From the NCBI RefSeq assembly GCF_026151205.1, contig NC_087080.1, forward strand, positions 7,357,096 to 7,421,095: DNA of 64,000 nucleotides, written 5' to 3'. The position numbers and the translations under genes are program-made. Source of the DNA: Bolinopsis microptera. Its lineage: Eukaryota; Ctenophora; Tentaculata; Lobata; Bolinopsidae. Under the pieces are notes generated by a model. That model made no database searches. It was not told where the DNA came from and saw only the letters and a list, made by a program, of their open reading frames with translations. This document shows positions 1 to 26,000 of this stretch, in pieces. Position 1 is the first letter of the stretch. Each line of letters begins with the position of its first letter.

Positions 1-3000
1 AAACTCACCTCATATTCAAGGAACAGGAGTTTGTTCACCCACCCTCTAAACTCACCTCACATTCCAGGAACACGAGTTTGTTCACCCACCCTCTAAACTC
101 ACCCCACATTCCAGAAACAGGAGTTTGTTCACCCACCCTCTAAACTCACCCCACATTCCAGGAACAGGAGTTTGTTCACCCACCCTCTAAACTCACCTCA
201 CATTCCAGGAACACGAGTTTGTTTACCCACCCTCTAAACTCACCTCACATTCCAGGAACAGGAGTTTGTTCACCCACCCTCTAAACTCACCCCACATTCC
301 AGGAACAGGAGTTTGTTCACCCACCCTCTAAACTCACCTCACATTTCAGGAACAGGAGTTTGTTCACCCACCCTCTAAACTCACCACCTCACATTCCAGG
401 AACAGGAGTTTGTTCACCCACCCTCTTAACTCACCTCACATTCCAGGAACACGAGTTTGTTCACCCACCCTCTAAACTCACCCCACATTCCAGGAACAGG
501 AGTTTGTTCACCCACCCTCTAAACTCACCCCACATTCCAGGAACAGGAGTTTGTTCACCCACCCTCTTAACTCACCTCACATTCCAGGAACAGGAGTTTG
601 TTCACCCACCCTCTAAACTCACCCCACATTCCAGGAACAGGAGTTTGTTCACCCACCCTCTAAACTCACCCCACATTCCAGGAACAGGAGTTTGTTCACC
701 CACCCTCTAAACTAACCTCACATTCCAGGAACAGGAGTTTGTTCACCCACCCTCTAAACTCACCTCGCATTCCAGGAACAGGAGTTTGTTCACCCACCCT
801 CTAAACTCACCTCACATTCCAGGAACAGGAGTTTGTTCACCCACCCTCTAAACTCACCCCACATTCCAGGAACAGGAATTTGTTCACCCACCCTCTAAAC
901 TCACCTCACATTCCAGGAACAGGAGTTTGTTCACCCACCCTCTAAACTCACCACCTCACATTCCAGGAACAGGAGTTTGTTCACCCACCCTCTAAACTCA
1001 CCTCACATTCCAGGAACACGAGTTTGTTCACCCACCCTCTAAACTCACCTCACATTCCAGGAACAGGAGTTTGTTCACCCACCCTCTAAACTCACCCCAC
1101 ATTCCAGGAACAGGAGTTTGTTCACCCACCCTCTAAACTCACCACCTCACATTCCAGGAACAGGAGTTTGTTCACCCACCCTCTTAACTCACCTCACATT
1201 CCAGGAACACGAGTTTGTTCACCCACCCTCTAAACTCACCTCATATTCAAGGAACAGGAGTTTGTTCACCCACCCTCTAAACTCACCTCACATTCCAGGA
1301 ACAGGAGTTTGTTCACCCACCCTCTAAACTCACCCCACATTCCAGAAACAGGAGTTTGTTCACCCACCCTCTAAACTCACCCCACATTCCAGAAACAAGA
1401 GTTTGTTCACCCACCCTCTAAACTCACCTCACATTCCATGAACAGGAGTTTGTTCACACACCCTCTAAACTCACCCCACATTCCAGGGACAGGAGTTTGT
1501 TCACCCACCCTCTAAACTCACCCCACATTCCAGGAACAGGAGTTTGTTCACCCACCCTCTAAACTCACCTCACATTCCAGGAACAAGAGTTTGTTCACCC
1601 ACCCTCTAAACTCACCCCACATTCCAGGAACAGGAGTTTGTTCACCCACCCTCTAAACTCACCCCACATTCCAGGAACAGGAGTTTGTTCACCCACCCTC
1701 TTAACTCACCTCACATTCCAGGAACACGAGTTTGTTCACCCACTCTCTAAACTCACATCATATTCCAGGAACAGGAGTTTGTTCACCCACCCTCTAAACT
1801 CACCTCATATTCCAGGAACAGGAGTTTGTTCACCCACCCTCTAAACTCACCTCATATTCCAGGAACAGGAGTTTGTTCACCCACCCTCTAAACTCACCTC
1901 ACATTCCAGGAACAGGAGTTTGTTCACCCACCCTCTAAACTCACCCCACATTCCAGGAACAGGAGTTTGTTCACCCACCCTCTAAACTCACTTCACATTC
2001 CAGGAACAGGAGTTTGTTCACCCACCCTCTAAACTCACCACCTCACATTCCAGGAACAGGAGTTTGTTCATCCACCCTCTAAACTCACCTCACATTCCAG
2101 GAACAGGAGTTTGTTCACCCACCCTCTAAACTCACCACCTCACATTCCAGGAACAGGAGTTTGTTCACCCACCCTCTTAACTCACCTCATATTCCAGGAA
2201 CAGGAGTTTGTTCACCCACCCTCTAAACTCACCTCACATTCCAGGAACAGGAGTTTGTTCACCCACCCTCTAAACTCACCCCACATTCCAGGAACAGGAG
2301 TTTGTTCACCCACCCTCTAAACTCACCTCACATTCCAGGAACAGGAGTTTGTTCACCCACCCTCTAAACTCACCACCTCACATTCCAGGAACAGGAGTTT
2401 GTTCACCCACCCTCTTAACTCACCTCACATTCCAGGAACACGAGTTTGTTCACCCACCCTCTAAACTCACCTCATATTCAAGGAACAGGAGTTTGTTCAC
2501 CCACCCTCTAAACTCACCTCATATTCCAGGAACAGGAGTTTGTTCACCCACCCTCTAAACTCACCTCATATTCCAGGAACAGGAGTTTGTTCACCCACCC
2601 TCTAAACTCACCTCACATTCCAGGAACAGGAGTTTGTTCACCCACCCTCTAAACTCACCTCATATTCCAGGAACAGGAGTTTGTTCACCCACCCTCTAAA
2701 CTCACCTCATATTCCAGGAACAGGAGTTTGTTCACCCACCCTCTAAACTCACCTCACATTCCAGGAACAGGAGTTTGTTCACCCACCCTCTAAACTCACC
2801 CCACATTCCAGGAACAGGAGTTTGTTCACCCACCCTCTAAACTCACCTCACATTCCAGGAACAGGAGTTTGTTTACCCACCCTCTAAACTCACCACCTCA
2901 CATTCCAGGAACAGGAGTTTGTTCACCCACCCTCTAAACTCACCTCACATTCCAGGAACAGGAGTTTGTTCACCCACCCTCTAAACTCACCACCTCACAT

Positions 3001-4875
3001 TCCAGGAACAGGAGTTTGTTCACCCACCCTCTAAACTCACCTCACATTCCAGGAACACGAGTTTGTTCACCCACCCTCTAAACTCACCTCATATTCAAGG
3101 AACAGGAGTTTGTTCACCCACCCTGTTAACTCACCTCACATTCCAGGAACAGGAGTTTGTTCACCCACCCTCTAAACTCACCCCACATTCCAGAAACAGG
3201 AGTTTGTTCACCCACCCTCTTAACTCACCCCACATTCCAGAAACAAGAGTTTGTTCACCCACCCTCTAAACTCACCTCACATTCCATGAACAGGAGTTTG
3301 TTCACACACCCTCTAAACTCACCCCACATTCCAGGGACAGGAGTTTGTTCACCCACCCTCTAAACTCACCCAACATTCCAGGAACAGGAGTTTGTTCACC
3401 CACCCTCTAAACTCACCTCACATTCCAGGAACACGAGTTTGTTCACCCACCCTCTAAACTCACCCCACATTCCAGGAACAGGAGTTTGTTCACCCACCCT
3501 CTAAACTCACCCCACATTCCAGGAACAGGAGTTTGTTCACCCACCCTCTTAACTCACCTCACATTCCAGGAACACGAGTTTGTTCACCCACTCTCTAAAC
3601 TCACATCATATTCCAGGAACAGGAGTTTGTTCACCCACCCTCTAAACTCACCTCATATTCCAGGAACAGGAGTTTGTTCACCCACCCTCTAAACTCACCT
3701 CATATTCCAGGAACAGGAGTTTGTTCACCCACCCTCTAAACTCACCTCACATTCCAGGAACAGGAGTTTGTTCACCCACCCTCTAAACTCACCTCACATT
3801 CCAGGAACAGGAGTTTGTTCACCCACCCTCTAAACTCACCACCTCACATTCCAGGAACAGGAGTTTGTTCACCCACCCTCTAAACTCACCTCACATTCCA
3901 GGAACAGGAGTTTGTTCACCCACCCTCTAAACTCACCTCACATTCCAGGAACAGGAGTTTGTTCACCCACCCTCTAAACTCACCACCTCACATTCCAGGA
4001 ACAGGAGTTTGTTCACCCACCCTCTTAACTCACCTCTTATTCCAGGAACACGAGTTTGTTCACCCACCCTCTAAACTCACCCCACATTCCAGGAACAGGA
4101 GTTTGTTCACCCACCCTCTAAACTCACCTCACATTCCAGGAACAGGAGTTTGTTCACCCACCCTCTAAACTCACCTCACATTCCAGGAACAGGAGTTTGT
4201 TCACACACCCTCTAAACTCACCCCACATTCCAGGAACAGGAGTTTGTTCACCCACCCCTCTAAACTAACCTCACATTCCAGGAACAGGAGTTTGTTCACT
4301 CACCCTCTAAACTCACCTCGCATTCCAGGAACAGGAGTTTGTTCACCCAACCTCTAAACTCACCTCGCATTCCAGGAACAGGAGTTTGTTCACCCACCCT
4401 CTAAACTCACCTCGCATTCCAGGAACAGGAGTTTGTTCACCCACCCTCTAAACTCACCTCGCATTCCAGGAACAGGAGTTTGTTCACCCACCCTCTAAAC
4501 TCACCTCACATTCCAGGAACAAGAGTTTGTTCACCCACCCTCTAAACTCACCTCACATTCCAGGAACAGGAGTTTGTTCACCCACCCTCTAAACTCACCT
4601 CACATTCCAGGAACAGGAGTTTGTTCACCCACCCTCTAAACTCACCTCACATTCCAGGAACAGGAGTTTGTTCACCCACCCTCTAAACTCACCTCACATT
4701 CCAGGAACAGGAGTTTGTTCACCCACCCTCTAAACTCACCCCACATTCCAGGAACAGGAGTTTGTTCACCCACCCTCTAAACTCACCTCACATTCCAGGA
4801 ACAGGAGTTTGTTCACCCACCCTCTAAACTCACCTCACATTCCAGGAACAGGAGTTTGTTCACCCACCCTCTAAA
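1..4875. repeat. 47-bp minisatellite built from the synaptojanin splice acceptor
   Basis: About 100 head-to-tail units of 47 bp (a 50-bp variant has an extra ACC) run from the window edge to the first visible exon. Each unit is 17 nt of intron end (CTCACCTCACATTCCAG) followed by 30 nt that match the start of the real exon (GAACAGGAGTTTG and on to CTCTAAA). The last unit is itself the start of exon 4846-5017. The unit length is not a multiple of three and every frame meets TAA soon, so the short ORFs inside are not genes. The array may continue left of the window. Confidence 0.97.
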
Positions 4876-5017
4876 GTTCGTGTCAGACCACACCGCTTGG
4901 TTTGTTAACCTGATATGTGGAAGTGTAAGTATCTCTACTATCTACTGTGGAACACACCAAGCAAGAGCTGCTGTCATCTCTAGAGTCAGCTCCGAGAGAG
5001 CTGGTGCTAGGTTCCAG
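4846..5017 (+). CDS. SYNJ: synaptojanin exon, Sac domain
   Basis: Starts with the third base of a split codon, then [10 protein letters not shown], which aligns with the N-Q-S-L...HLK region of known synaptojanins, then [12 protein letters not shown] and [10 protein letters not shown]. If the preceding exon ends in TG the split codon is Trp, as in the family. The acceptor TTCCAG is the last copy of the minisatellite. Ends phase 0 before gtgatt. Confidence 0.9.
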
Positions 5018-8000
5018 GTGATTAGTCGATTAGTTAATTAGTTGATTAGTTAATTAGTTAATTAGTTAAATGTTTCTTTAGTCAATCAGTTAATCAGTTC
5101 AAAAGAAACTTAGTCAAATAGTAAATTAGTAATTCGGTTAAATAGTTAAATTAAGATAGCATAATTAGGATTATAATTATAATTATAGCATAATTAGAAT
5201 TAGAATTAGAATTATAGTTTTAATAGAGCAATTAATCTTAGTCCAGCTCCATGATCCTTGGTCGACCAAAGGTAAACCAGTTTGTGCAGTCAACCTTGTG
5301 AACCGTTATGTGTCGTGAAAAAGTCTGCTGTAGAACAAATAATATTTAATATTTCTAAAAACGAAAAAAACTTGAAATAGATTTTTTATTAATAGAATAA
5401 ACATTCAGCTGAGCATTCATTGATAATAAAATGTAATTTGCTTAAAGCTTATCGGCTGTTGCTTTCTTTTAGTTTGCGCTGTTATTTTTCTAAAAAGTTG
5501 AACGAATTATTCATGTTATCACCTCACCACAGAAAAAAGTTTAACCCTACCACAGAAAAAAGTTTAACCATACGTTAAATACGTTAAATCATACAATCAA
5601 CCTTCATTGTTCATATAGAATAAACAGCTGAAAAACTAAAATGTTAAGTTAATAGATACTCAAAATAAGGTTTTATAACGAGTTCCCGTAAATCGCCTAC
5701 CAACAGGAATAGAACGATGAATTACTGAAACATTTATTTAATAAATACGCGTTTTACAGGTTCGAGGTGTTTACTAAGCACGTGTTTTACAGGTTCGAGG
5801 TGTAGATGATAACGGGTGCGTTGCTAACTTTGTGGAGACAGAACAGTGCACCGTACTCAACGATAAGATCAGTAGTTTTATACAAATCAGGGGAAGTGTG
5901 CCTGTATTCTGGGAACAGTCTGGTATCCAGGTACAGTAAAACCCCGATCTACTAGTTAATTAGTTAACTATACTAAGTGAAATTTAGATTCAGATAATTT
6001 ATTATTTGGATTGGGTCTGTGAAATAGACTGTTACATGAAACATGTAACTTACCGTCTAAAATAAAAATATGTAGTGATAATATTTTAGAAATGTAATCT
6101 TAATTTTTTTAAATACATCTTTTCTTTATATCTTAATTAAAATACCTCTTATCTTTACATTTCAGGTAGGGTCCCACAAACTGGCCATAACAAGAGGTTA
6201 CGAACTGACACAAGTCGCTTACGACAAGTAAGGATCTTTACTTTCCCTTCACTATAGAATATGTTTAATCTTTTGGGGATAAATTTTGTGAATTAGTGTA
6301 GTGCAGTGCTGAAATTTATAATATTGTTGGAGAGCTGTGCTGAAATACGCACCGCATTGTATATTTTTAGCTAGTTGATATCAGCATTAGGGGGTGCAGT
6401 GTTTAAATACGGTTTCCTTTTCCTTTAACAATGATTTTTGCAGGCACATGACCCTGCTGAAGAAGGACTACGGACTGGTTATGATACTGAACTTGTTATC
6501 CAATAAACCAGACACTGATGAAAGCCATCTCAGTAACCAGTTCCAGGTGAGCAGCTGAATAGCAATCCAGTCATATTATATATGTTGTATGTTATAATAT
6601 AATATTATTACACTACTAGTGTGACCCTTGCCCATGGCCGGGACTTCACTATCGCAGTTGAAATGCAAAAGTATAAACACGCCTATTATATTCGAAAACA
6701 CGCATAACATTGTCGTATGAAAGTCGGTGAAAGTATGAACTTTCTCTATAGTCAAAACAAACCGCAATGAGTGCCCATGCCCCCCCCCCCCCCCAATAAG
6801 CTTATACTCTTATAGTATTACATAATAGTGAATCTTGCCGCCGATACACTGCCAAATAACCTAATTATGATTTATGTACCAACGCTGCATATGCAGTAAT
6901 GGGAGAGAGAACGAGGAGGGAGAAAAAGTGAGCCATTTTATGTCACATTTGTGGTACAAAACCATCAATTAAACCACTTACCACCGGCCGATTTAAAGAA
7001 AATGCGCTCATTGGCATCGTCAGAGTTTTGTCGAGACTATACCGAACAAACCAGTCCCATAAGTTTTACCGTTTTCTTGATAAGCCGCTCGGAAATTACA
7101 CGCGACAGACAGACAGACAGACACACATTTTGAGATTATTAGTATAGATGTAGGAGCTAGGAGCTGTATTTGTAGTTTCTCTGTTCTTGCCTCCCTTTAC
7201 GATACATACCTCTCAGGCGCATCAAATGGACAGTGTGCACGAGGATGTGATGATGAGGAACTTTGACTACCATGCCGTGTGTAAGGGGAACAGAACCGAG
7301 CCTATACAGTCCCTTTACAAGGACATTGAGACTTTTGTAGGCTTCTCTGGCATCTTCTGCCAGAACGGCAACGAGTGTATTGGGTAATTATATTTCAGAT
7401 TATAATTAGTTATACTTATATTACTTATAATTAATTGCTATTTGAAGCCTTTTTGTAGCTTCTGTGTTAGTGTACAATGAGTCATTGTAAGGTTCAGTGA
7501 TGAAGGTCATGATAAAGTAGAATAATAATAATGATAATACTAATAGCAATCTGACGATCATTATATTCCTCCATCCTCTAGTTTCCTTTATAGAGGCCTA
7601 GAAACCTAAACTTTAAATATTAATTGTGCTAATTTGCATCAGAATGGCACTAACAGTAGAATCAATCAATAACTCCAATTCTCAAGTACGTATTGCATAT
7701 TACCGCCATATATCAACTTGTGTATTACAACAGTTAAAAGTACGAATGAAGAAAAAATTGTCTGTATTATAGAAATTCGTATCGAATTAAACAGTAAGTT
7801 ACAAACAGATAACTTTGTATTACACAACACACGATGAGTAGAAAAGAACCAACTTGTAATTATTAGCGTAATTTATAGAATAGTTAGCAATGTAATTATT
7901 GACGTAATTATAAACAGAATTTTTAGCGTATCTATTATCGAGCCATTGTCACGTCTCGCTAAGTTTTGAGCGGAAAAACGTGTTCTCCAATCCAATTTAA

Positions 8001-11000
8001 AGATCATAAATGTAATGTTTAACAAGTTATTGTAACTAACTTAAAAAAACTTACTAAATTAGAAAAAAAAAACTTACGAAATCATTAATGACTCGGTTAG
8101 TTCAATCGTAGTTTTAAACTAAAAGACTGTAAAACGATTAAAAACTGATTGAGATCAAACAAAACTGTTCGTATTCAATTATTTGAAGTTTACAATTACT
8201 ATGTCCTCGGTTACATGTTACACACTGAAGAGTATTCAGTCCAATCAGCTGCAAGTTTGCCCGTCGTGAAAGAACTTGAAGTGGGAGATAAACCTTTCTG
8301 TCACTGTTGCTCCTTTGAAATCTCCTGCGGATGTGTTTAATTTAGAAGACAAGTGTAAATAGAATAATTCTTTAATTACTGCAATAATAGATAACTAATA
8401 TTAATAAAAACAATTACTGTTAAAAGGTATCCAAACGTGTTATCAGTACATCACAATATAAAAGCATAAAGCTACTAAAACATTTAAAGCTTACCTAGAA
8501 TTTCCCATGTCTGTTTCAGTTCTTCAACTAACTCCACGGAGACCGTCTTGTTGAAGAACTTCTCTCCTCGTAGCAGGTCCCAGCGGCTGAATGTTGTTCC
8601 GTTCCCCTGCTCACATTCACAGTCCTCTGTACTGTTGGTTTCTACCACTTCATCTTTCTCTTTTGGTTCAGGGGTGCAGCCAACGTCGATCTCAGTGACA
8701 TCTCCTGATTTCTCCTCAAGAAGCATGTCTTCCCATTTCAGATACCTACTTCGTCCATATTTATCTTCTACTTCTGAACAGAGACCTCCGTCCGCCATTT
8801 CGTTCACTTCAGCAGCACTCAGTTCTTTATCAAACATGTTCACCTTGAACAGTTCACCACCAAATGGAAAAATAAAGTTACTTCCGTATGAGTTAAACTC
8901 ATTGCCCAGTATAACATACCCGTCTAGACCAAGCCTCTTACCAGAGGGGGTTGTGACTGATCCGAGAAGTAACCCATCATAGTACACACTAACTGTTCTA
9001 GTAGTGAGACTCCACGTATTGCAGACATGTCTCCATGTTCCTAGCTGCTCAGTTACCTTGCTCCTCGTATCTACATAGGTGCTCAACGTGCGGAAGAATC
9101 CGTTATCTGATGAATAAATCTCATTGACATCACTAGATGTTCCGTAAGCAAACCAGTACTTTCTTTCACCAGATAGTATCTTCTTTACCCATCCGCACAG
9201 CGAGTAGGATTCCTGTACTGGTTCCATTCTTGGCTTGAAGAGAACGTAGTCCTGGTTTGTAGCTCCGAACTTTAATCCCCTGTAGCGTCTTTCTACCAGT
9301 CTTTGTCCGGGCTCGTCGACAGATGAATCTACGGCGAGGAGTAGTCCGAGTATAGCGAGAAGAGTTGAAAAGCACAACATAGTTAAAACAACTGTTCGAA
9401 TGTGAGATCTCCTCCCGAATACTTGGATTTATAAATACAATATCACCTGATTGTTGTGTGACGATAGTAACCGAGTTTTGACTTTCGAGCTGACGATAAT
9501 CCAGTTGGCAGAGCTGTGGTCTACTCAGTGTTATGTTTGGTTATACCAAGCATTATTATTACCTTATATAGACATAAACAGTAAGCTGTTCATATCCAGA
9601 CAGCTGCTTCTCGTGACTCAACAGATTTCGAAATATCGTATTTTATTATCACAATAATACAGTAAATCGGAATAAAATATAGCTACGTTGTTTTGCTAGA
9701 GAAAATTACTTAGTTTTTATAGTAAATAGACTCCAACATACTGAAGTTCTAACAACATATTATATCCCACAATGTTTACAGCTTTACTGGGTTATTTAGT
9801 ATGCAGTAGGTATTGAGAGATGGTTGAAATTCAATTTCTGAAGTGTTCTACTAGTACAGTAAAATGTTTGCTGTTCATAATCTAGTCTGTAGAAAGATCT
9901 TATTGATGGGGAGATTAAGCAGCTACCCACTCTTAAATTGTGTCCACTTTTAAAATCTTACATCCATCCTTTATTATTGAACTCTAACTATTCAAAGTTT
10001 GGGCACATTTGACGAAGACTTCACTGCACTCAAGATGAAATAATTAATAACTTAATTAATGAGTTGATTTAATATTTAATGAAATAATCATCCTACTAAT
10101 TACTATAATTACTATGATTAATCCCAACTCTCCTGACCCAGCGTACAGGAAGGAGTACTAAGAACTAACTGTCTGGACTGTATAGACCGGACCAACTCAG
10201 TACAGACCTTCATCTCCAACAAGATCCTTGTAAGGCAGCTGGAGCACATCTGCGCGGTGCCCCAGATTGAGAAGTTTAGCGCCGCGTTCGACAAGTGCTG
10301 GCATACCAACGCTAACCTGGTCTCACGTACTTACTGCGGAACTGGTGCTCTTAAAACAGCTACTGGCAAGGTAGGATCTTGAGGGTTGCGACGTAATTTG
10401 TGAAGATCTATTTTTAAAAGTTTTAAAAAGTTAATAAAGTCTAGAAATCCAGGCGTGAAAATAGTGAAATTAGTTTATGTTATCAATTGTATCAATTTTT
10501 GAATTATTTATGTAATTAATTAATTGCGTTTATTAAATTTGCTGTAGTTAATGACCAGCAAGTTGCTGAGCGTTTGATTTGACTCTTGTCTCTTGTTAGT
10601 CAGCTACTGATTCGGCGATTAAGTCCCTGGCCCGTGATCAAGTAAGAGCGTGACTCTGCCACTGTACTGCTCAATTTATCCGCACTATCCAAGAAGACTG
10701 ACCTCTAGGGGTAGACATTAGGCTCATGTTAGGGTAATGTCAGGTTAAGGTTAGAGTGTCTAAAGTCTACACTCTACCCTAACTCTAATTCTAACTCTAC
10801 TTCTAACTCTAAAGTCTACCCTCACTTGTCGAACTTCTTAGATACTGCCATTTTCTAATACCTCATTCGCTCTCTGTCCCTGTGTAAAGCTTAAACTGAA
10901 AAAAATATGGCCTTAAATTTCAAGCTCCTCTTTTGAGTATCCTCATTATAGAATATTAAATATTTGGCTGCTGAAAGTTAAAGTTTTATAAGTGGAGCTC

Positions 11001-14000
11001 GAAATTTAAGGGTCTGCAATTTGTATGCAGTGTTTTACTTTTCGGTTTATTCCTGTAATGTTCGTGGATTCTTATGTGAGTTATGCTTATGCTGATAATA
11101 TGATATGTTTATTTATAATGTGCAATCATCAATCAATGTAATATTATCATGTTAATGTGTGTGATGTTTTTGGCTGAATGTGAAGCAAAATACAGCTGTG
11201 TAACTTAATTCATCACTGCAAAAAGCATTTTAGGATTATTAAACTTGAATCCCTCGCACGTGACATCACACCCCCTCACGTGACGTCACACCCCCTCACA
11301 TGACATCACACTCCCCTCGCACGTGACACCACACCCCCTCACGTGACGTCACACTCCCCTCGCACGTGACAACACACTCCCCTCACGTGACGTCACACTC
11401 CCCTCGCACGTGACATCACACTCCCCTCGCACGTGACGTCACACTCCCTCACATGACATCACACTTCCCTCGCACGTTACGTCACACTCCCCCTCGCCCC
11501 TTGAAATCACACTCCCCTCACATGACGTCACACTCCCTCACGTGACATCACACTTCCCTCGCACGTGACGTCACACTCCCCTCGCACGTGACGTCACATT
11601 CCCCTCACATGACATCACACTCAGATGAGTCGTCTCACGGACGCTACACGGTCAGTTAAGCGGACGATTCAGAACAATTTCCTGGACGACAACAGACAGG
11701 AAGCTATCGAGGAGTTCCTCATGTATCCTGAGAAACCGTTACCTCCTGTCATTTCTAAGTGTGAACGATTCTGTGAGTTGTTCGTTTGTGTTTCAGGCGA
11801 ACAGATTTAACACCTACTTTTTATCCCTGTGTTTTATTTTAGAACTACTTTAAGAAATTTGTACCTGTCATTTCCTAGTATGCCCTTAAAGCCTTAATCG
11901 GCAGACTTACATGAAATACAAGAATCGTGCCACTGTATACAAATTAATTGTTAAAAAAGAGTATAATAATTTAGTAATTTGGCTAATTCCTGATAATAAC
12001 CATGTAAATTTCAGTACCCAAGTTGTTTGTGGAGGGACTGCTTTCTGAATCACGTGACTACTGTTCTAAACTTCCTATTCGTGTTGCGGTCGGTACTTGG
12101 AACAGCAACGGAGGTAATGTCAAGCCTCTTATCTTTAATTATTAAGAAACTGTTTATCTTTAATTATGTTTTTATAAATTAACTTCATAGGGTTGATAAT
12201 TATGGGTATTATTTCTTTATGTGGACAGTAATAATTTTTCAAGAATCTGGGGCGGGTGGGTACCAAAAAGTAAGATATTGTAAAATGTTATGTTTTCCCG
12301 GGTAAGATATTGTAAAATGTTATTAAGCAGTTACATCACTGCTTATAATGTGATAACATTATTTTCACAACTTTGAGTTGTGAAAATAGTTTTATCCAAC
12401 GAGTTTGACGAGTTGGATAAAACGAGTTATATCCCGAGGTTTGACCGAGGGATATAACTCATGTTATCATATTATAAGCAGTGATGTAAATGCATTCTCT
12501 GATGATCTACGAAATGATGTTAGCGAATGCAGCATTTACATCGGAAATTAACGACCGATAATATTACTACATAGAACATTCCAGAGTCAAACTTTCTAGA
12601 GGACACATCCTTATCTCTTAAAATTGTTACAGGTCGCTGAGATGTTGCTAATTATTTTAAATTGGTCAAATAAGCTCATTGAAGCTCACACTCACACAAA
12701 ACTTGCCACAAATGGTTGACTACTTGTTATTGACATTCTGTAAAATTTTGAAGCAAAAATATTTATCAGAACATAAGTTATACCACTTTCTGTTTTTAAA
12801 ATAATTAGCAACATCTCAGCGACTAAGGATGGACCAGGGAGATAACAATAGTTACATCCCTGGCCCTCCTATTTACCTGTTAATCACAGCCTAAATGTAG
12901 TACCAGGGAGATAACAATAGTTATCTCCCTCCCAGTTATTGCACCCCTATTTAATGCATTATATTAGCGTAAACAAGAGTGAGATAACAACTTTTACATT
13001 ATGGACAGTTACACACTGATCATGAGAGAATAATTATTATCTCCCAGGTAAGATATTTTGTAAAATATTGTTATCTCCCAGGTAAGATATATTGTAAAAT
13101 ATTGTTATCTTCCAGGTAAGATATATTGTAAAATATTGTTATCTCACAGGTAAGATATATTGTAAAAAATTGTTATCTCGCAGGTAAGATATAATATTGT
13201 AAAATATTGTTATCTCCCAGGTAAGATATATTGTAAAATATTGTTATCTCCCAGGTAAGATATATTGTAAAATATTGTTATCTCGCAGGTAAGATATATT
13301 GTAAAATATTGTTATCTCCCAGTTAAACTATATTGTAAAATATTGTTATCTCCCAGGTAAGATATATTGTAAAATATTGTTATCTCCCAGGTAAGATATT
13401 GCGGGATGATAAAGATAAACTGGCAGACTGGTTACTGGACGCCCCACGAGTAGCGTGCAGTAACCAGTTCAAGCTAGGAGGTATCTGTGACGATCTACTA
13501 GGACTAGACGCAACTGAGCAGCCTGCAGATTTAGGTTTGAGGCTATTTTTAGTAACAGGATCAGTGAGGATGTTGATAACCAATTTCTGTCAGCAATTTT
13601 GTAGCTATCTTCCGTGACCGTCAATCAGTTGCGACCATGTCCGGTATTTTGGGGCTTGTTACAAGCGATCGAACAGCCACTACGACTATGAAATATATAA
13701 AACTCCCGCCAGTCCCTTCAAGTAAATAACGTTGAAATTCAGGCAACAAAACACCGTCCTACGGTTACGTAGATAAAGGAGCCAGCTACCAGGACGACCC
13801 TGATGTTATTGCTATAGGGCTTCAAGAACTTGTCGATCTAACTGCTGGAAACATCGTCTCTACTAGGTTATATATTTACTTACTTACTTAATAATTAATT
13901 TTAAAGAAGAGTTTCGAAATAATAATAGTCCTATTTAGTTACCCATGATAACCGGGAACGAAGTAATTTTTCTCTAAATCTATCGCTCAATCGTGTTAAT

Positions 14001-17000
14001 TACACTGTTGGACGTTGTTATGTTATTTTATCTAATGTAAAATTGATATAATATTTAATCCACATTCCATTTCAGTCAGCGTAAAAGAGGAATGTGGAGT
14101 ACCAGATTCCAGGAAATTCTGTGTAGGGACTCAAACTACATTCTTCTGTCTTCAAGACAACTTGTGGGCGTGTGCCTCTTTGTCTTCATAAAGGCCAACC
14201 ATCTTCAACACTGCACGTTAGTTTCAACATTGTGTAGAATATGTAGAATACAATATGTAGAATATTCAATATAATATGTAGAATATGTGTAGAACTGCCG
14301 TGTTGTGTATACCAATGATTTTCCATCCTCTACTGCGGTACACTGTCTTCACTGTGTTTATTTAATATAGAATTACATCATCATGCCAGTCTAGGAATTC
14401 CGAAAGCGAAAGTTCCATTTCTAGCGGATGAATGTGAACGAGTTCTTTAGCAAGACTTAGAATTTGTTTATGCTTATTGTTTAATTTGATTCGCTTCGAT
14501 ATGTGACACTCATATTACATATTTAACTCAGCCTCCCATTCATTATGTTATCTTCTGTTTCTTTTGCGATAGTGTAACGTGATGGTTAGCTGCACTGACT
14601 AGCTTTACCTATACCTATCAATAGCTAGCACAATCTAGCGATAACTATCTCGTTGCACCATCTAGAGGTAACTAGCGCTTATAGTTAGTTTGTGCAAGAT
14701 TTCGGAATTATTACTCGTCCGCTGGCAGTTTTTAATTAGTACCAACTAATGATCTATAATGTAATAACTTATCAAGTTAGTTCTTAAAACGTTGCTTTAT
14801 TTAGTTTTTAAGAATATTATATTATGTTATTTTACGTGCAATGATTAATTAATCAGTTGTTCTAGATTGCTGAGCCGAGTCAACATATTATAAGTGCAGT
14901 GGGTGCGGAATCGCACTATTACCTGTTTCCCGCACCTATAATAACTTAAAGCCCCTTCCCACACTATATTCGCACTAACAGTCGTTTTCCGCAATTTGGA
15001 ACTTCCCGCCCAATTCTTCACAATTTTAGGTACAGAATTCCACAATCTATCGAAAAATTGGGGCAAGTTCAGTTACAAATTACTGCAGAGATCCTTGTTA
15101 CCATTTCTTGTTACCACGTGACCGTATTCACCGTTATTGAATCTCTTATTGATTAATCGTTTGCTTTCACACTAATTGATTGCTAATCATGGATCGTTGT
15201 TTAAAACGTTCTGCACCGCCACTATCCGACCCTAGCAGTAGTTTGTCGTCTTCTGAAAAGCCTTCAGTTTAAAAATAGCTAAACAAGAAGATATTACGGC
15301 TGCATTTAGAGCTCAGGAATTTAGTTCACATAATATTACCTCTACTACTACTTACTTACTTACTTGTACTTGAAAAGGTCTCCTCCTAGTCGTTGGAGTG
15401 GCCTGCACCACATAGTAACTCTATTACCTAGGCGTACGTAATCAATTTTTGCCAATTTTCTGCTGTGTTGTGTATACCAATGAAATTTCATCCTCTACTG
15501 CGGTATACTATCTTCACTGTGTTTATTTAATATAGAATTGCATCATCATGCCAGTCTAGGAATTCCGAAAGCGAAAGTTCCATTTCTAGCGGATGAATGT
15601 GAACGAGTTCTTTAGCAAGACTTAGAATTTGTTTATGCTTATTGTTTAATTTGATTCGCTTTGATATTTTACACTCATATATATAACTCAGCCTCCCATT
15701 CATTATATTATCTTGCTGTTTCTTTTGCGATAGTGTAACGTGATGGTTAGCTGCACTGACTAGCTTTGCCTATAGCTATTAATAGCTAGCACAATCTAGC
15801 GATAACTATCTCGTTGCACCATGTAGCCCTAACTAGCGCTTATTGCTAGTTGGCGTAAGATGTTGGAATTATTACTCGTCCGCTTGCAGTTTTTAGTTAG
15901 TGCCAACTAATGATCTATAATGTAATAACTTATCAAGTTATATCTTAAAACGTTGCTTTATTTAGTTTTTAAGATTTAAGAATATTATATTATGTTATTT
16001 TACGTGCACCGGTGGGTGCGGAATCGCACTATTACCTGTTTCCCGCACCTATTCTTACTTAAAGCTGCTTCCCGCACTATATTAATTGCACTAGCAGTAT
16101 TTTTTCGCAATTTGGAACTTCCCGCACAATTCTTCACAATTTTAGTTATAGAATTCCACAATATATCGAAAAATTGGGGCGAGTTCAGTTACAAATTACT
16201 GCAGGGATCCTTGTTACCATTTCTTGTTACCACGTGACCGTATTCACCGTTGTTGAATGTCGTATTGATTAATCGTTTGCTTTCACACTAATTGATTGCT
16301 AATCATGGATCGTTGTTTAAAACGTTCTGCACCGCCACTATTCGACCCTAGCAGTAATTTGTCGTCTTCTAAAAAGCCTTCAGTTTAAAAATAGCTAAAC
16401 AAGGCTGCATTTAGACCTCAGGAATTTAGTTCACATAATATTACCTACGCGTACGTAATCAATTTTTGCCAACTTTTACCCCCAAAATAAGACAATAATT
16501 TCGCATTAAATCAACATGCCTACCTTCTCTTGTTTTTTACTTTCTTTTTTATGCAACTTTATTAAAACTTTATTTTTCAAGCAGGAAGGCAGTTGGGTTA
16601 AAACAATAATATTGATATGGTGTTGTTGTGTTGTGTTGATGACACTAATGATCATGATAAAATATACGAGAAGTATCTTAATTACCTGGATGGTGAATTG
16701 AAGAAAGAATTGGACAAGAAGGAGGAGGATGACGAATTTTCTTCAAACCCCAAATCTTGGATAACTGACCAGTGTAAAGCTGACAAATTTATGGAATGGT
16801 TTGACAAAGAAGAAAAAGAAGAAAAAGAAAATGAAAGTAAAGAGACTAACACCTCAGAAACGAATAAGCTGAGTGCCAAAGATTCCTTTTACGTCGATTT
16901 GGTGAAACATATTTTAAAGGAGGTCAAGAAAAATAGAAATGAACATTATGATGCGGATGGATTGCAATATGGCTGCTCCTCTAGCTTCGTTATAGATATT

Positions 17001-20000
17001 GTGGATCTGAAATTTGACTGCGAAAGAGGTAAGAGTGAGGATGAGACGATCGCTGAAGAACGCTATTCACGGAAATGGCTTCATACAAAGACGCACCTCG
17101 GAAATATTGCCAGAGCACTGGTGACTGAAGAGCATCTTAAACTTTTGGACGATCCACTGAAAACAAGTTTAAGGTTGGGGGTTTATATTTATGAACGAAA
17201 ACTATACAAGATTATGCTTCAACTTCATGATGATCTTCACAATGTTCCTAGAAAATTTGTCATGGGTTTGCTAGACAATTGCATGTCTCTGAAAGAAATC
17301 GAATTTCTTATGGACATCGAAGATACGGATGTTCTGCTAGATCTACAAGCCGGAAAATTCTGCGATGTTGTGGCAAGGCCTGTTTACAAGAAACTTTACC
17401 TCGAAAGAATATTTTGGAAAGAGCGGGTATATGACGATTTCCTTTCTTCATTTCTAGCTTTGTTGAGAAGGTTGCTATGTTTGGTACTCTGGAACATCTT
17501 GTACCCGTTCAAGATAGCCTATTACAAAGTTAGAGAGAAGAAAAAGCAAGAATTCATACCTCATCACCGACTTTTTTCACCTATCTCATGCTTCATTGCC
17601 GATATTGTCAGTTACTTCATCATGACTTTTTTCATCTGCTTTGTTTTGCTAGAAATACACCCAGACCAGAAAAGCACGATAGATCTGATATCTCGATATC
17701 GCCAAGGAAATGTTACCTTAGACCACCCTCGACTTAGCATCGGAACTGTAGATGGAATAATAATGGTTGCACTTGAGAAAAATCCATTTTCCCTCAGTTT
17801 ATGGACACTGCTGCTGTGCTTTATTTCGAGGATTCTTATTGAATTCAATCAGTTAATCAACAACCGCCCCCATCAAGGCTCTAGAAACCGCGGATTTTGG
17901 AAAAAGATTCTGGGATTTTGGAAAAAGATTCTGACATACTTCAAAAGTGATATGAACAAGGTGGATGTGGTTATGATCCTTTTCTTGTCATTTGCCTTTA
18001 TAATCAATTTTCACTACTGTTTCTCTACACAGTCAGTGTATGGGAGGGTGTGTGTGAACAATTCAAGCTGTGACGAAACTCTAGACTTCACAACTGAGAC
18101 CCGTCGAGTGGTATACATGACAAACCTTTACAGTGTTGCCCTCTTACTAACTTTAGTGCGGCTCTTTCACGATATCTTTCTCTTTATTCCCATCGTTGGA
18201 CCAATCATGCAGTCCATGCAGAAGATGATAAAAGACGTATTCAAAGTGGTCATGATCTTGACATTCTTCTCTGTAGGGTTCTTTATCCCTCTTTTTGCCA
18301 TTGTACAGAGCTACATTGCTGTGCATCAGCTCGAGGTCGGTGAGAATCAAGTATTCCAAAGTATGGATACTCCAGTTAACGGATTTATCACGATGATCCT
18401 GAGCATCATGGAAGGTAAACTTACGTATTCTGAGGACATATACGAGCAAGAAGATCAGGCAACGAAATTCTTCTTCTTCTTCTTTATGATCTTCTACTTC
18501 TTGATCTTTGGGCTTCTTTGTCTGAATTTGCTCATCGCCCTCATTTCAAATAGGTACTCGACTATGATGGAAAACAAGAATAAAAACTGGAGATTTTCTC
18601 AGTTTACCCATATTGTGGATTACTTGGCACAGAAGAAAAAGATGCCATTTTTCTTTCCATTCAGCCTACTCTACTTTTTCTTTCGCATTTTTTCAAAATC
18701 TTGCACTAAAGATCAAACAGTAGAAGATAATATAGAAAGTAAAGAGTTCATAAAAATACCAATAGAAGATAATACAGAAAGGAAAAAGTTCATAAAAAGA
18801 CTAATGAAACGTAAAGAAAACGCTAAAAGTAAAGATAAAGATGAAGAATGTCAGGAGGAGTTACTAAAGAAGTAAAAGGACAGTTGAAAGAGGAAGATAG
18901 GTAAATGCTTCTGTTGACTCTGCTCCATTAAAAGAGTCAGTTTCTAACCCCCAAACTGTTCAGAACTCAATATGCCAATGTTGCATTCGATAAAGATATT
19001 ATGTGTGTATATCATATACTGCTAGTGTTGAAGAAATAAGTGTCTTAGCTGTAAAACTTTGCAATTTGCATGCTATTTAGCTACTAGTCAATGAAACAAT
19101 AAGTTTTTAATGAAACAAAAAGTTTTATTTTATATTCTTTTAATCATATCCTCACCTGAACAATAAAAATTGACTAAAAAGTGTGTTTTGAGATAATCGA
19201 GGAAAAATGATTTCGGAATGTATAGTTACTTTAAAGGGATCATGAAGTGTCCCCGACTTAATCGTCAAAACATTTCACATATACTATCACATAGAAACAC
19301 TAATATAAGAATAGGGCTCGGAATTCCCAGATTCGTAACTTAATTAGGTCGCGTGTAATCGATACAGGAAGATCGCCCTAATTTGTTGGATTGCGGCTAA
19401 CTGTCAGACACTGCAATAGAAACAGTGTTAAAATGCACATTTTTATTCATGTGCTGTGGCGCCAATTTAATTGATAAAATCTCCAAATTAACGACACTTG
19501 ATAGATTTGACTTTTATCTTTCAAAAATTGTGGCTGTATAATGTGCATAATATACACAAGCGTCAAATAATTGTCTTATAAGTTTACGTACTGCTGTGTA
19601 ATGTTGTAGGAAGAAAAACATTCAATTACCAAACGCTAAATAACAATACACGTTAGTAAGAACCTATTACCTAGACTAACTTTAAAGTATAATTACTTTT
19701 TTCTTGATACAAACAATTACTTCAACTTGTTAAGTTCATGGCAAAATATGTCCATCATCAGTTCCGATACTGATAAAACCCGTATACCAGAATGTCTATC
19801 AGTCACTAAACTGAACCCATCAATCCCTTTTCCAATCAATTTTAGGAGCAGTTCTCTGCACCCTGCCCTTTCAAGTTCCTCCATGTTCAACCCTCTCTGT
19901 GCAATGAAGAAATCGATTACACGTCCGGAACCGTGCTCCATGACTGTATAGACGCAATACTTCGCTGTGTGACCGGGTGAATCGAACTGCCCGTCTCCTG

Positions 20001-23000: not shown

Positions 23001-26000
23001 AACGAATGAGAAAATGTAAAGTAAGAAGTAAGAAGAGTCAGTTCAAAAAGAGGGCTTCAATCTTTACCTTTATTATATTTTTTTGTGCTGTGAAAGCTTT
23101 CTGTGACTTTTTTTCCCTCAACCTTAAAAAACAGCTTAAACTTGAGTTGTGACGGAAGTAGAAATCCCCATCGTCTTTGCCTTCCTCTAATTAGCAAGTA
23201 CAGCTATATTATTTTATCTCAATAGAATGTGGTATCAGAAATATATTTATTTTGACCAAAAAATTATGAAAATGAAGCCCATTTCGTCAAGAAGTTATTC
23301 CTCAGCTTTTGGTCTAATGTGCAATGGGCATGGGCATCTATGGGGTTGCCCCCCCCCCCCCCCCCCTCATTCCAGAGATATTTGTATTGAGCCTGTGATA
23401 AAAACCGTGTACCATTTCACGTATATCTGTAATCTGTATTGGCACAACAAAACACAATTTCAGGGATATCTGTAATTTGTATTGGCACAATAAAATACAA
23501 TTTCAGGGATATCTGCATAGACGCAATAAAAACGGGACTAAAAGGAAAGACAGGGAATAAAGGTGGGGTGGCGATATCATTCAACCTCTACTCAACCTCT
23601 TTGTGCTTTGTATGTGCACATCTGGCTGCTGGACAGAACAATGTTATTGACAGAAACAAGCACTACGAATACATCAGGGACAAGGCCTTGTTTGATAACG
23701 TATGTGTTATTTTTGTTGCTTTTATAAGTGTGTTTTGTTTTGGAATCGAATTTTAGCAATTTTGGGGCTTTTCTCAATTCACACTTTTTTGTTGTAAATT
23801 TTGCGTCTGTTTCCTATTTTTCATTGTGCTTTTATCTTTCGTTCATCGGGCTATTTAATGCACTTCCAAGCTCATTGAAAGCGCGCAAGGTATATTTTAC
23901 TATACAGTAAACGCTATACATACTCGCTCAGGGAATGGAGATAGAGGATCACGACTACGTTTTCTGGTGCGGTGACTTTAACTACAGGATAGACTATGCA
24001 AACCATGAGATACGAGATTTGGTTAAAAAGAAATCTTGGTACGATCTTCAGTGTGCTGATCAGCTCACTGTTCAGAAAAACGAGAAAAAGGTGATTCGAA
24101 TTAATTTACGTACATTTTATTGTTTTGTTATTGTAAACACGTTACTGGGTTTATATGCAGAAAGTAATTGTAAAATTAGTGTCAGTTATTTTACTGCTAT
24201 TGTTTATAATTGTTATGTGATGCTACACATGTGACTTTCTGACAAATTTACATAATATGAAATTATGCCAACTTGCTGTGCGACCTAATCATTAAGCGAT
24301 TTGTGGTTTAAAAATGTTGATTTCTGAATGTTTGTACACTTTAATCAGCTTTAGGGTTAAACTTAAATCGTACAACTTGCAGTGCCAACTGAAACTTTAG
24401 TTCACACTACACTTCTGGCTTACACCCTATGAAATAATCCGAGCCCATCACCTAGTTGATAATTACGCCAGTGGCGTAACGTTGCCTGTTGGCGCCCCCC
24501 TGCCGAAAAAAGCGCCCCCCTGTTGGCGCCCCTCCCCTTTTGGTGCCCCTCCCTAAAATTGAACAAATTAGGTGATTTTAAAGAATACGCCGGTAAAATC
24601 TCTAAAAAAGTGTGTATCTAGAGCAAAACGCGCAGTTTTGCTAGTACTTTAGTTAAGTTTTCGAAATTGTCCCACATTCAAACGACGATTTGGCGCCCCC
24701 CTAAGACGGCGCCCCCCTGCACAGCAGGGTCAGCAGGGCCTTTCGTTACGCCACTGAATTACGCACTGTCTTTAATACTGGCCTCGCGAGAGTACTGTCT
24801 GTAATCACAAGCCGGACAGTCACAGGTTTTTGGGGTGCATTACGCAGCGCGCGAAGACATTTTATTGTTTTATATAAAGTTGTCACAACAGACTTTCCAC
24901 GCGCGTTTCTGATCTGATCTGTGCGTAGTAAGCGATCTATTTCTCTATCTCAAGAATTGAGTTGATGTCATGACGTTAATTATCGTTTTAAAGAAGACTA
25001 TTTCACACGTGGCATGTATTAACCATCTGTTAATGTACGATACAATTAACAAACTATTGTCACTTTTTTCATCCGTACACCCGTGTTATAGTTCACAATT
25101 ACTTTCAATATTATCAAATCTAAATCTACTTCCTGTTCCAGGTATTCCAAGGGTACAACGAGGGTCCACTGGAGTTTGCTCCGACTTATAAATACGACCT
25201 GAACTCAGATTACTACGATACAAGCGAGAAATTCAGATCTCCAGCATGGTCAGATATTTTTAATTGAATACTGAAATCTATAAGATATTGACCTTGTCAG
25301 TTGTCTATCAAATGTTCACGTAATTGAAATAGGGCTTGGGAGATGTTGACATTTCAATAGAATTGCATGTAGTGGATTAAAACGCGTTTGATGGGATAGC
25401 ATTCAAAGGATAAGACTAGACAAGAATATTTTCCGTTTTGGCAATCTGCGATGTCGGAAGGGAGTAAAAAGGGCAAATAAGGGAGTGAGAATCTAACTTA
25501 TTTGCAATTTTTACTCAGTGAGATCAACAAGGATCGTCAATAAGGCACACGAGATGGTAAGAACTAAGAATACGACGTCTCTTCCACAGGATCGTGATTC
25601 GTGGTTTAATCGGATTTCCTTAGGGCGTTTGATTGTTGACATATATCGGAATACAGTTGAATCATAAAATGAGGTTCTTGAATTAAGATTTAAGTGACAT
25701 GCAACTTGCAAGGTTTTATGATAACGAACAAGCCACTATCGTTGATATACCCACAAGAACAGAATTAGCTATAACAAGGCTTTGCTCTTTTATAGTTATT
25801 AGCAAAAATAAGTCATGGCATAAACGACCCCCGAACATAACCCGACTTCTTTACCGCGGCCACTTCACAATTTCCTCCCCAAAATATTTTATGGGTGCTG
25901 ACTGCGACAGACTGCTGGTTTGGGATATGTGTTCAAAGTTTAGGTGGTACCTCTGCAACTTGGCATTCAAGTATTATCATTGTTATTGTCTATGAAGATA

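Follow-up and report, generated by a model that had tools for sequence, protein, structure and literature searches.

Amplified splice acceptors before exon 5 of a synaptojanin gene in the ctenophore Bolinopsis microptera, and copied splice junctions elsewhere in its genome

Splice-site choice has usually been studied with few competing sites. Recursive (zero-exon) splice sites have the form AG/GTRAG (here and below, a slash marks the junction). In a potato RdRp gene, according to the available sections of the report, a tandem duplication lies over an intron-exon boundary (PMC4974935), and CeRep25B is presented, in the accessible part of PMC4039745, as an intronic minisatellite near alternatively spliced regions of C. 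elegans. For competing sites, the available text of PMC9225289 gives a preference in long introns for the site nearest across the exon and the opposite preference in short introns, and cites Reed and Maniatis for the opposite, intron-proximal preference. We found no description of splice-junction arrays in the accessible portions of one open-access library, outside which most subscription papers lie, and the available parts of two ctenophore papers (PMC12221973, PMC8527503) describe no tandem repeats at junctions.

We analysed a 64,000-nucleotide stretch of the Bolinopsis microptera genome (the window, C9:7357096-7421095). The first-pass annotation had seen a 4.8-kb minisatellite at its start, and TRF confirmed this for window positions 1..4875 (plus strand; period 47, 103.1 copies, 95% matches), but the array begins before the window, 1538 bp (1.54 kb) upstream at C9:7355557 (L009:8462), and its true length is 6414 bp (6.4 kb). 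A script located 136 exon-start cores. Of the 135 core-to-core intervals, 119 measure 47 bp exactly, and 132 of the 135 array units retain the acceptor AG. The proposed division of the unit into 17 nt of intron end with CAG and 30 nt of exon start is borne out (CTCACCTCACATTCCAG/GAACAGGAGTTTGTTCACCCACCCTCTAAA), and the splice-site elements it carries are a branch-point-like CTCTAAAC, a short tract, and the CAG. With 136 copies of 47 bp between exons 4 and 5, the array is an intronic minisatellite (units of roughly 10–100 bp within an intron). There are 36 distinct unit sequences, 30 of 135 units being identical to the consensus, and per-site variation is 0.033 in the intron part versus 0.016 in the exon part. 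By eye, the unit contains no donor consensus on the plus strand. The reverse complement of each unit has GAG/GTGAGT, a strong donor consensus, and because of this the array (window 1-4875) is a donor array too on the minus strand. A dispersed introner-like element was rejected as the source, the unit having no matches at other loci: in a genome search with window 4500-5400, which scores best candidates only, the array part (query 1-376) matched only within C9:7355557-7362495, and other matches fell at query 516-726, beyond the 47-bp unit. A coding repeat was likewise rejected, as every decoy frame contains a stop.

Four exons precede the array, and the last of these, ending ...TTC TTA TG/GTAAAG, supplies the sole donor found upstream of it. 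Exon 5 (4846..5017, plus strand, 172 nt) is bordered by the AG at 4844-4845 and a donor from 5018 (GTGATT), starts CAG/G AAC AGG AGT TTG (window 4846), and has as its first 30 nt the exon part of the last array unit. The frame stays open across nine joined exons, among them exon 6 (5793..5930), exon 7 (6166-6227), exon 8 (6444-6546), and exon 9 (7217-7383), all on the plus strand, and it includes the join of exons 4 and 5 (..FRFLW/NRSL..); the product matches Syja_N with E 6.3e-57. In a PDB match to yeast SAC1, FRFLWNRSL is aligned to ERFFWNHYL over this junction, and an alignment that included 14 of the 23 homologues shows no variation at F158 and almost none at W160 and N161. Because these junction residues are conserved among homologues, exon 5 truly begins in the last unit, and its first residues are synaptojanin-like, both as originally proposed. 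The alternative start named beforehand as fatal to that proposal, GTGTCAG/ACC, fails because the final TG of exon 4 would turn the join into TG/A, an in-frame TGA. Downstream on the same strand an exon at 23507..23699 encodes an inositol 5-phosphatase domain (Exo_endo_phos2, E 7.7e-15); a Sac domain and then a 5-phosphatase is the order of synaptojanin, the two domains having been found here on separate exon sets. Three further Sac-domain loci lie on C3, C5, and C11. Long arrays are difficult to assemble, and an erroneous copy number or a dead, unused locus would be an alternative reading; set against the 36 distinct unit sequences, the open frame over nine exons, and independent arrays of like kind at other loci (below), we find it scarcely credible.

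Upstream of the real acceptor, 131 AGs equal it in sequence quality. A weight matrix built from 18 other acceptors of the same genome (mean 10.98 bits, range 6.54–13.96; one of the 18, from L017, is without homology support) gave the real acceptor 12.17 bits and the 131 decoys a mean of 11.67, with 84 of 131 decoys scoring at or above the real acceptor as compared to 0.044% of 4502 background AGs from eight random stretches. Near-identical decoys are thus present as first supposed, although the count is 131 rather than about 100. When joined to exon 4, every decoy (131 of 131) reaches a stop before the exon end; the stop had been expected within two units, which is correct for 115, and the other 16 stop later, all 131 within 361 nt. 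Acceptors as strong as the real one, all with stops, are what would be seen if there were no discrimination, acceptors being used approximately at random and decay of stop-bearing transcripts sparing the few correct ones. Among 131 decoys, however, only ∼1% of transcripts would then be productive, and the intact frame over nine joined exons suggests adequate output, so we consider this unlikely. A preference for the first units, through intron definition and because they are transcribed first, would yield little full-length protein or regulation by decay. The far units are indeed transcribed first, and the available text of PMC9225289 treats intron-proximal preference as classical for short introns, but each decoy either loses the frame or runs into a stop, and the frame of the gene has been conserved, which makes this reading very improbable.

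The same gene contains other copied junctions. Exon 6 is preceded by one extra 33-bp copy of its acceptor and exon start (GTTCGAGGTGTTTACTAAGCACGTGTTTTACAG, 5760..5792, plus strand), identical at 18 of 18 nt over the junction. At 13033..13399 (plus strand, TRF) lies a 34-bp array of ∼10.7 copies, the unit of which, TTATCTCCCAG/GTAAGATAT..., consists of the acceptor and start of exon 13 (13391..13534, plus strand; BLASTP over the junction to P0005, a SYNJ1 homologue, E 4e-10), and in which 10 of 10 decoys lead to a stop. By eye, two more copies of GTAAGATATTGTAAAATGTTAT are present at ∼12278-12325, ∼700 bp before this array; perhaps the array was split by an inserted element, the intervening stretch having inverted repeats (window 12260-13399). 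A third array, of 43 bp and ∼3 copies (ATTTCAG/GGATATCTG, 23374..23506, TRF row 23414-23515, plus strand; 1 mismatch in 18 over the junction), directly precedes the 5-phosphatase exon at 23507. The 23/43-bp CACGTGAC array at 11251..11622 (plus strand, TRF) is of another kind, as it ends 2 bases before the acceptor AG, and its unit, having no AG, adjoins the junction and is no copy of it. Short-period arrays ending just before an acceptor, with the AG not included, were also seen at L036:3037-3144, L031:6750-6815, and L019:939-1248; these look as if they were supplying a branch-point and tract region too.

In a uniform test, a copy had to match 18 nt over the junction with no more than 1 mismatch and lie within 300 nt. 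Of the 15 synaptojanin acceptors tested, 4 are copied (those of exons 5, 6, 13, and the exon at 23507), and none of the 15 donors is. Background rates by this test were 1.5% in the rest of the gene (2751 positions) and 6.5% in 23 random stretches (17112 positions), and the excess is no more than suggestive, because the window had been chosen for one of the four. The introns before the four copied acceptors measure 6603, 775, 1277, and 9290 nt (the last if there is no exon between 14216 and 23507), and in this comparison, which takes in 14 of 15 introns, none of the seven introns of 123–235 nt has a copied acceptor, nor do three longer ones (670, 1254, and 2765 nt). Two nested-gene candidates lie in synaptojanin introns, an ORF at window 8500-9430 (minus strand) and a 757-codon open frame at 16601-18880 (plus strand), which is membrane-channel-like by eye.

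The first-pass annotation had treated the array as a single locus and proposed a genome search for arrays matching an adjacent exon start. Copied junctions recur in the genome, donors included, so that the single-locus view was not upheld: a survey of 23 random 10-kb stretches (20 plus three from the same position list; 230 kb), in which junction arrays were recognised by eye and unblinded from TRF lists and flanks, yielded three acceptor and three donor arrays. Homology supports three of the six array genes (permease, Furry, and glutamate receptor). The acceptor array at L017:7697-8090 has 7.3 copies of 54 bp with stops after 6 of 6 decoys, and its exon had no Pfam hit at E 0.5 and no PDB match better than E 1.2. 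The largest, in L025 with L032, has 232 copies of 31 bp (7.2 kb), with stops in the open frame after 231 of 231 decoys and no Pfam hit at E 0.5 for the L025 exon. At L033:1735-2000, five copies are spaced at 46–65 bp and 4 of 4 decoys stop; all 60 listed of 77 PDB matches to its exon (KGVDIRSVDDLLGQQEYAFGTVEG) are glutamate receptors, with a best E of only 0.026. Among the donor arrays, L031 has 30 GTTAGT donors at ∼56 bp, and reading past the first of them meets a stop 2 nt later; together with the exons that follow, its exon matches an amino-acid permease (PF00324, E 1.1e-6). On the minus strand of L019, a unit with CCTCAG/GTTAG is present in 8 copies, as counted by eye, in a gene whose joined exons match MOR2-PAG1_C (E 5.3e-9), which we take to be Furry. 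The exon evidence is weak for the donor array at L021:9836-9895 (28 bp, 2.1 copies), as one of its two reading frames had no Pfam hit and the other had E 0.14.

The surveyed stretches contain 71 merged TRF arrays (period 20–200, at least 1.8 copies), and four of the ∼12 that are 300 bp or longer extend over an exon edge, L019 having entered this count by the merging of overlapping TRF rows. As a rough extrapolation, six arrays per 230 kb would correspond to several thousand loci in 264.65 Mb. Three candidates were left uncounted: L033:9567-9896 (57 bp, 5.8 copies) is a single open frame throughout and may be coding, the 32-bp arrays of L034 share a long flank wherever they recur and seem linked to an element, and L016:7640-7818 (59 bp, 3 copies), at the end of a minus-strand ORF, is ambiguous. 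A codon-usage score was too weak for automatic exon finding. Among all junctions checked, with up to 3 mismatches allowed, copies were seen for 5 of the 27 acceptors and 2 of the 28 donors, figures in which the glutamate-receptor, permease, and Furry entries had been chosen because of their arrays; an earlier control on the same loci, arrays included, gave 10.2% of random positions and 7.5% of 3509 AG positions. In a myosin stretch chosen regardless of arrays (L036), none of 7 acceptors and none of 8 donors is copied. Two adjacent myosin-head exons in this stretch (L036:414-606 and 666-888) both match profile stretch ∼105-167 and are perhaps mutually exclusive.

The arrays could have a function, with many sites holding U2AF and U2 near the exon or offering unpaired acceptors for ctenophore spliced-leader trans-splicing. 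Clustered acceptors of full strength would suit either role, and the genome does have spliced-leader genes: a search with the Hormiphora spliced leader, as given in the accessible part of PMC8527503, found a cluster of at least four (L037-L040, C13:12811473-12894453) ending AATTTGAG/GTAAG or GTTAAG, with scores of 52–66, where 500 shuffles of one of these sequences reached at most 33. The cluster identifies the genome as ctenophoran. A further match, the fifth, lay on C10 and was dismissed as chance with its score of 27, and a guessed second leader pattern was abandoned with counts of 753/691 near those of the control (625/581). However, donor arrays also exist, other acceptors of the synaptojanin gene manage without an array, and a simple neutral origin is enough; a function of this kind is, in our judgement, distinctly improbable.

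The account we favor, and think probable, is that duplications which cross an exon edge and retain the whole of a splice site expand into the intron, that exon definition picks the exon-proximal copy, and that stops remove the leakage. In its anatomy, the 47-bp array is a junction-spanning minisatellite, each unit of which repeats an entire 3′ splice site and the opening 30 nt of synaptojanin exon 5. Duplication of an exon edge should leave the mRNA unchanged if the copy is equipped with a branch point, tract, and AG (or with a donor) of its own, since the copy closest to the exon remains in use; the array could therefore extend into the intron while coding selection preserves the last unit. 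Silence of this kind can explain the existence of both acceptor and donor arrays as well as the span of the unit, which reaches approximately from the branch point to some 10–35 nt into the exon (only ∼3 nt in L025). The last AG may win through exon definition, by pairing over exon 5 with its donor (from 5018), and nonsense-mediated decay would clear transcripts that leak to the closest decoys. In favor of exon definition, the frame is kept by the last copy in acceptor arrays and by the first in donor arrays, in both the nearest across the exon and the one that PMC9225289 reports as preferred in long introns; that the seven introns of 123–235 nt in this gene have no copied acceptor points the same way. 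Exon length, on the other hand, offers no explanation for the choice of the last over the penultimate unit (172 nt versus 219 nt), for which exonic enhancers or decay may be needed. Also against exon definition, intron 4 without its array would be short (∼220 nt), the three longer introns named above have no copied acceptor, and the intron-proximal preference credited to Reed and Maniatis is the opposite one. Leakage meets a stop in every array tested, and the splice signals themselves tend to supply it (TAA in branch points, TAG in acceptors, and GTAA, GTGA, or GTTAG in donors); AT-rich introns have frequent stops anyway, and we therefore claim no selection for stops and no proof of a safety role. 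A broader and rather doubtful extension is that exon edges are preferred birthplaces of minisatellites, with thousands of junctions bearing copies of their own acceptor or donor, and that growth shields itself, a longer intron favoring exon definition and making added sites harmless until hundreds of full-strength sites are neutral.

These loci offer a natural test of splice-site choice, as one intron presents ∼130 to 230 near-identical acceptors, or 30 donors, whose distances to the exon are known. Junction-read profiles would distinguish exon definition (falling off from the exon), intron definition (highest at the far end), and the absence of positional choice (flat). Such arrays would also be a cheap route for intron growth with the protein unchanged, and they are a warning that short-read mapping and gene prediction can misplace exons next to them.

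When compared to recursive splice sites, the 34-bp unit before exon 13 is alike in fitting AG/GTRAG (CAG/GTAAGA): CAG/GTAAGATAT joins an acceptor to a donor, and use of a decoy would recreate GGAG/GTAAG. The 47-bp unit differs, as its AG is not joined directly to GTRAG (CAG/GAACAG) and it has no donor. CeRep25B, as far as the available text of PMC4039745 describes it, shares tandem units of tens of bases within introns and a possible role in splicing, but its unit is a shared motif, whereas the ctenophore unit is the neighbouring exon's own splice junction. In the Reed and Maniatis 1986 reporters, as reported in the accessible part of PMC9225289, identical sites likewise compete at different distances, with two designed sites there and ∼130 natural ones here. 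The potato RdRp gene, in the sections of PMC4974935 available, likewise has a direct duplication, in which the start of the exon was copied along with its branch site, tract, and 3′ splice site. It has a single additional copy, though, with both acceptors in service and a donor taken from the exon for a newly formed intron; the ctenophore arrays reach 232 copies, and in the 47-bp unit no donor consensus is visible by eye. A single duplication of this type was already known from potato, as described in the same sections (PMC4974935).
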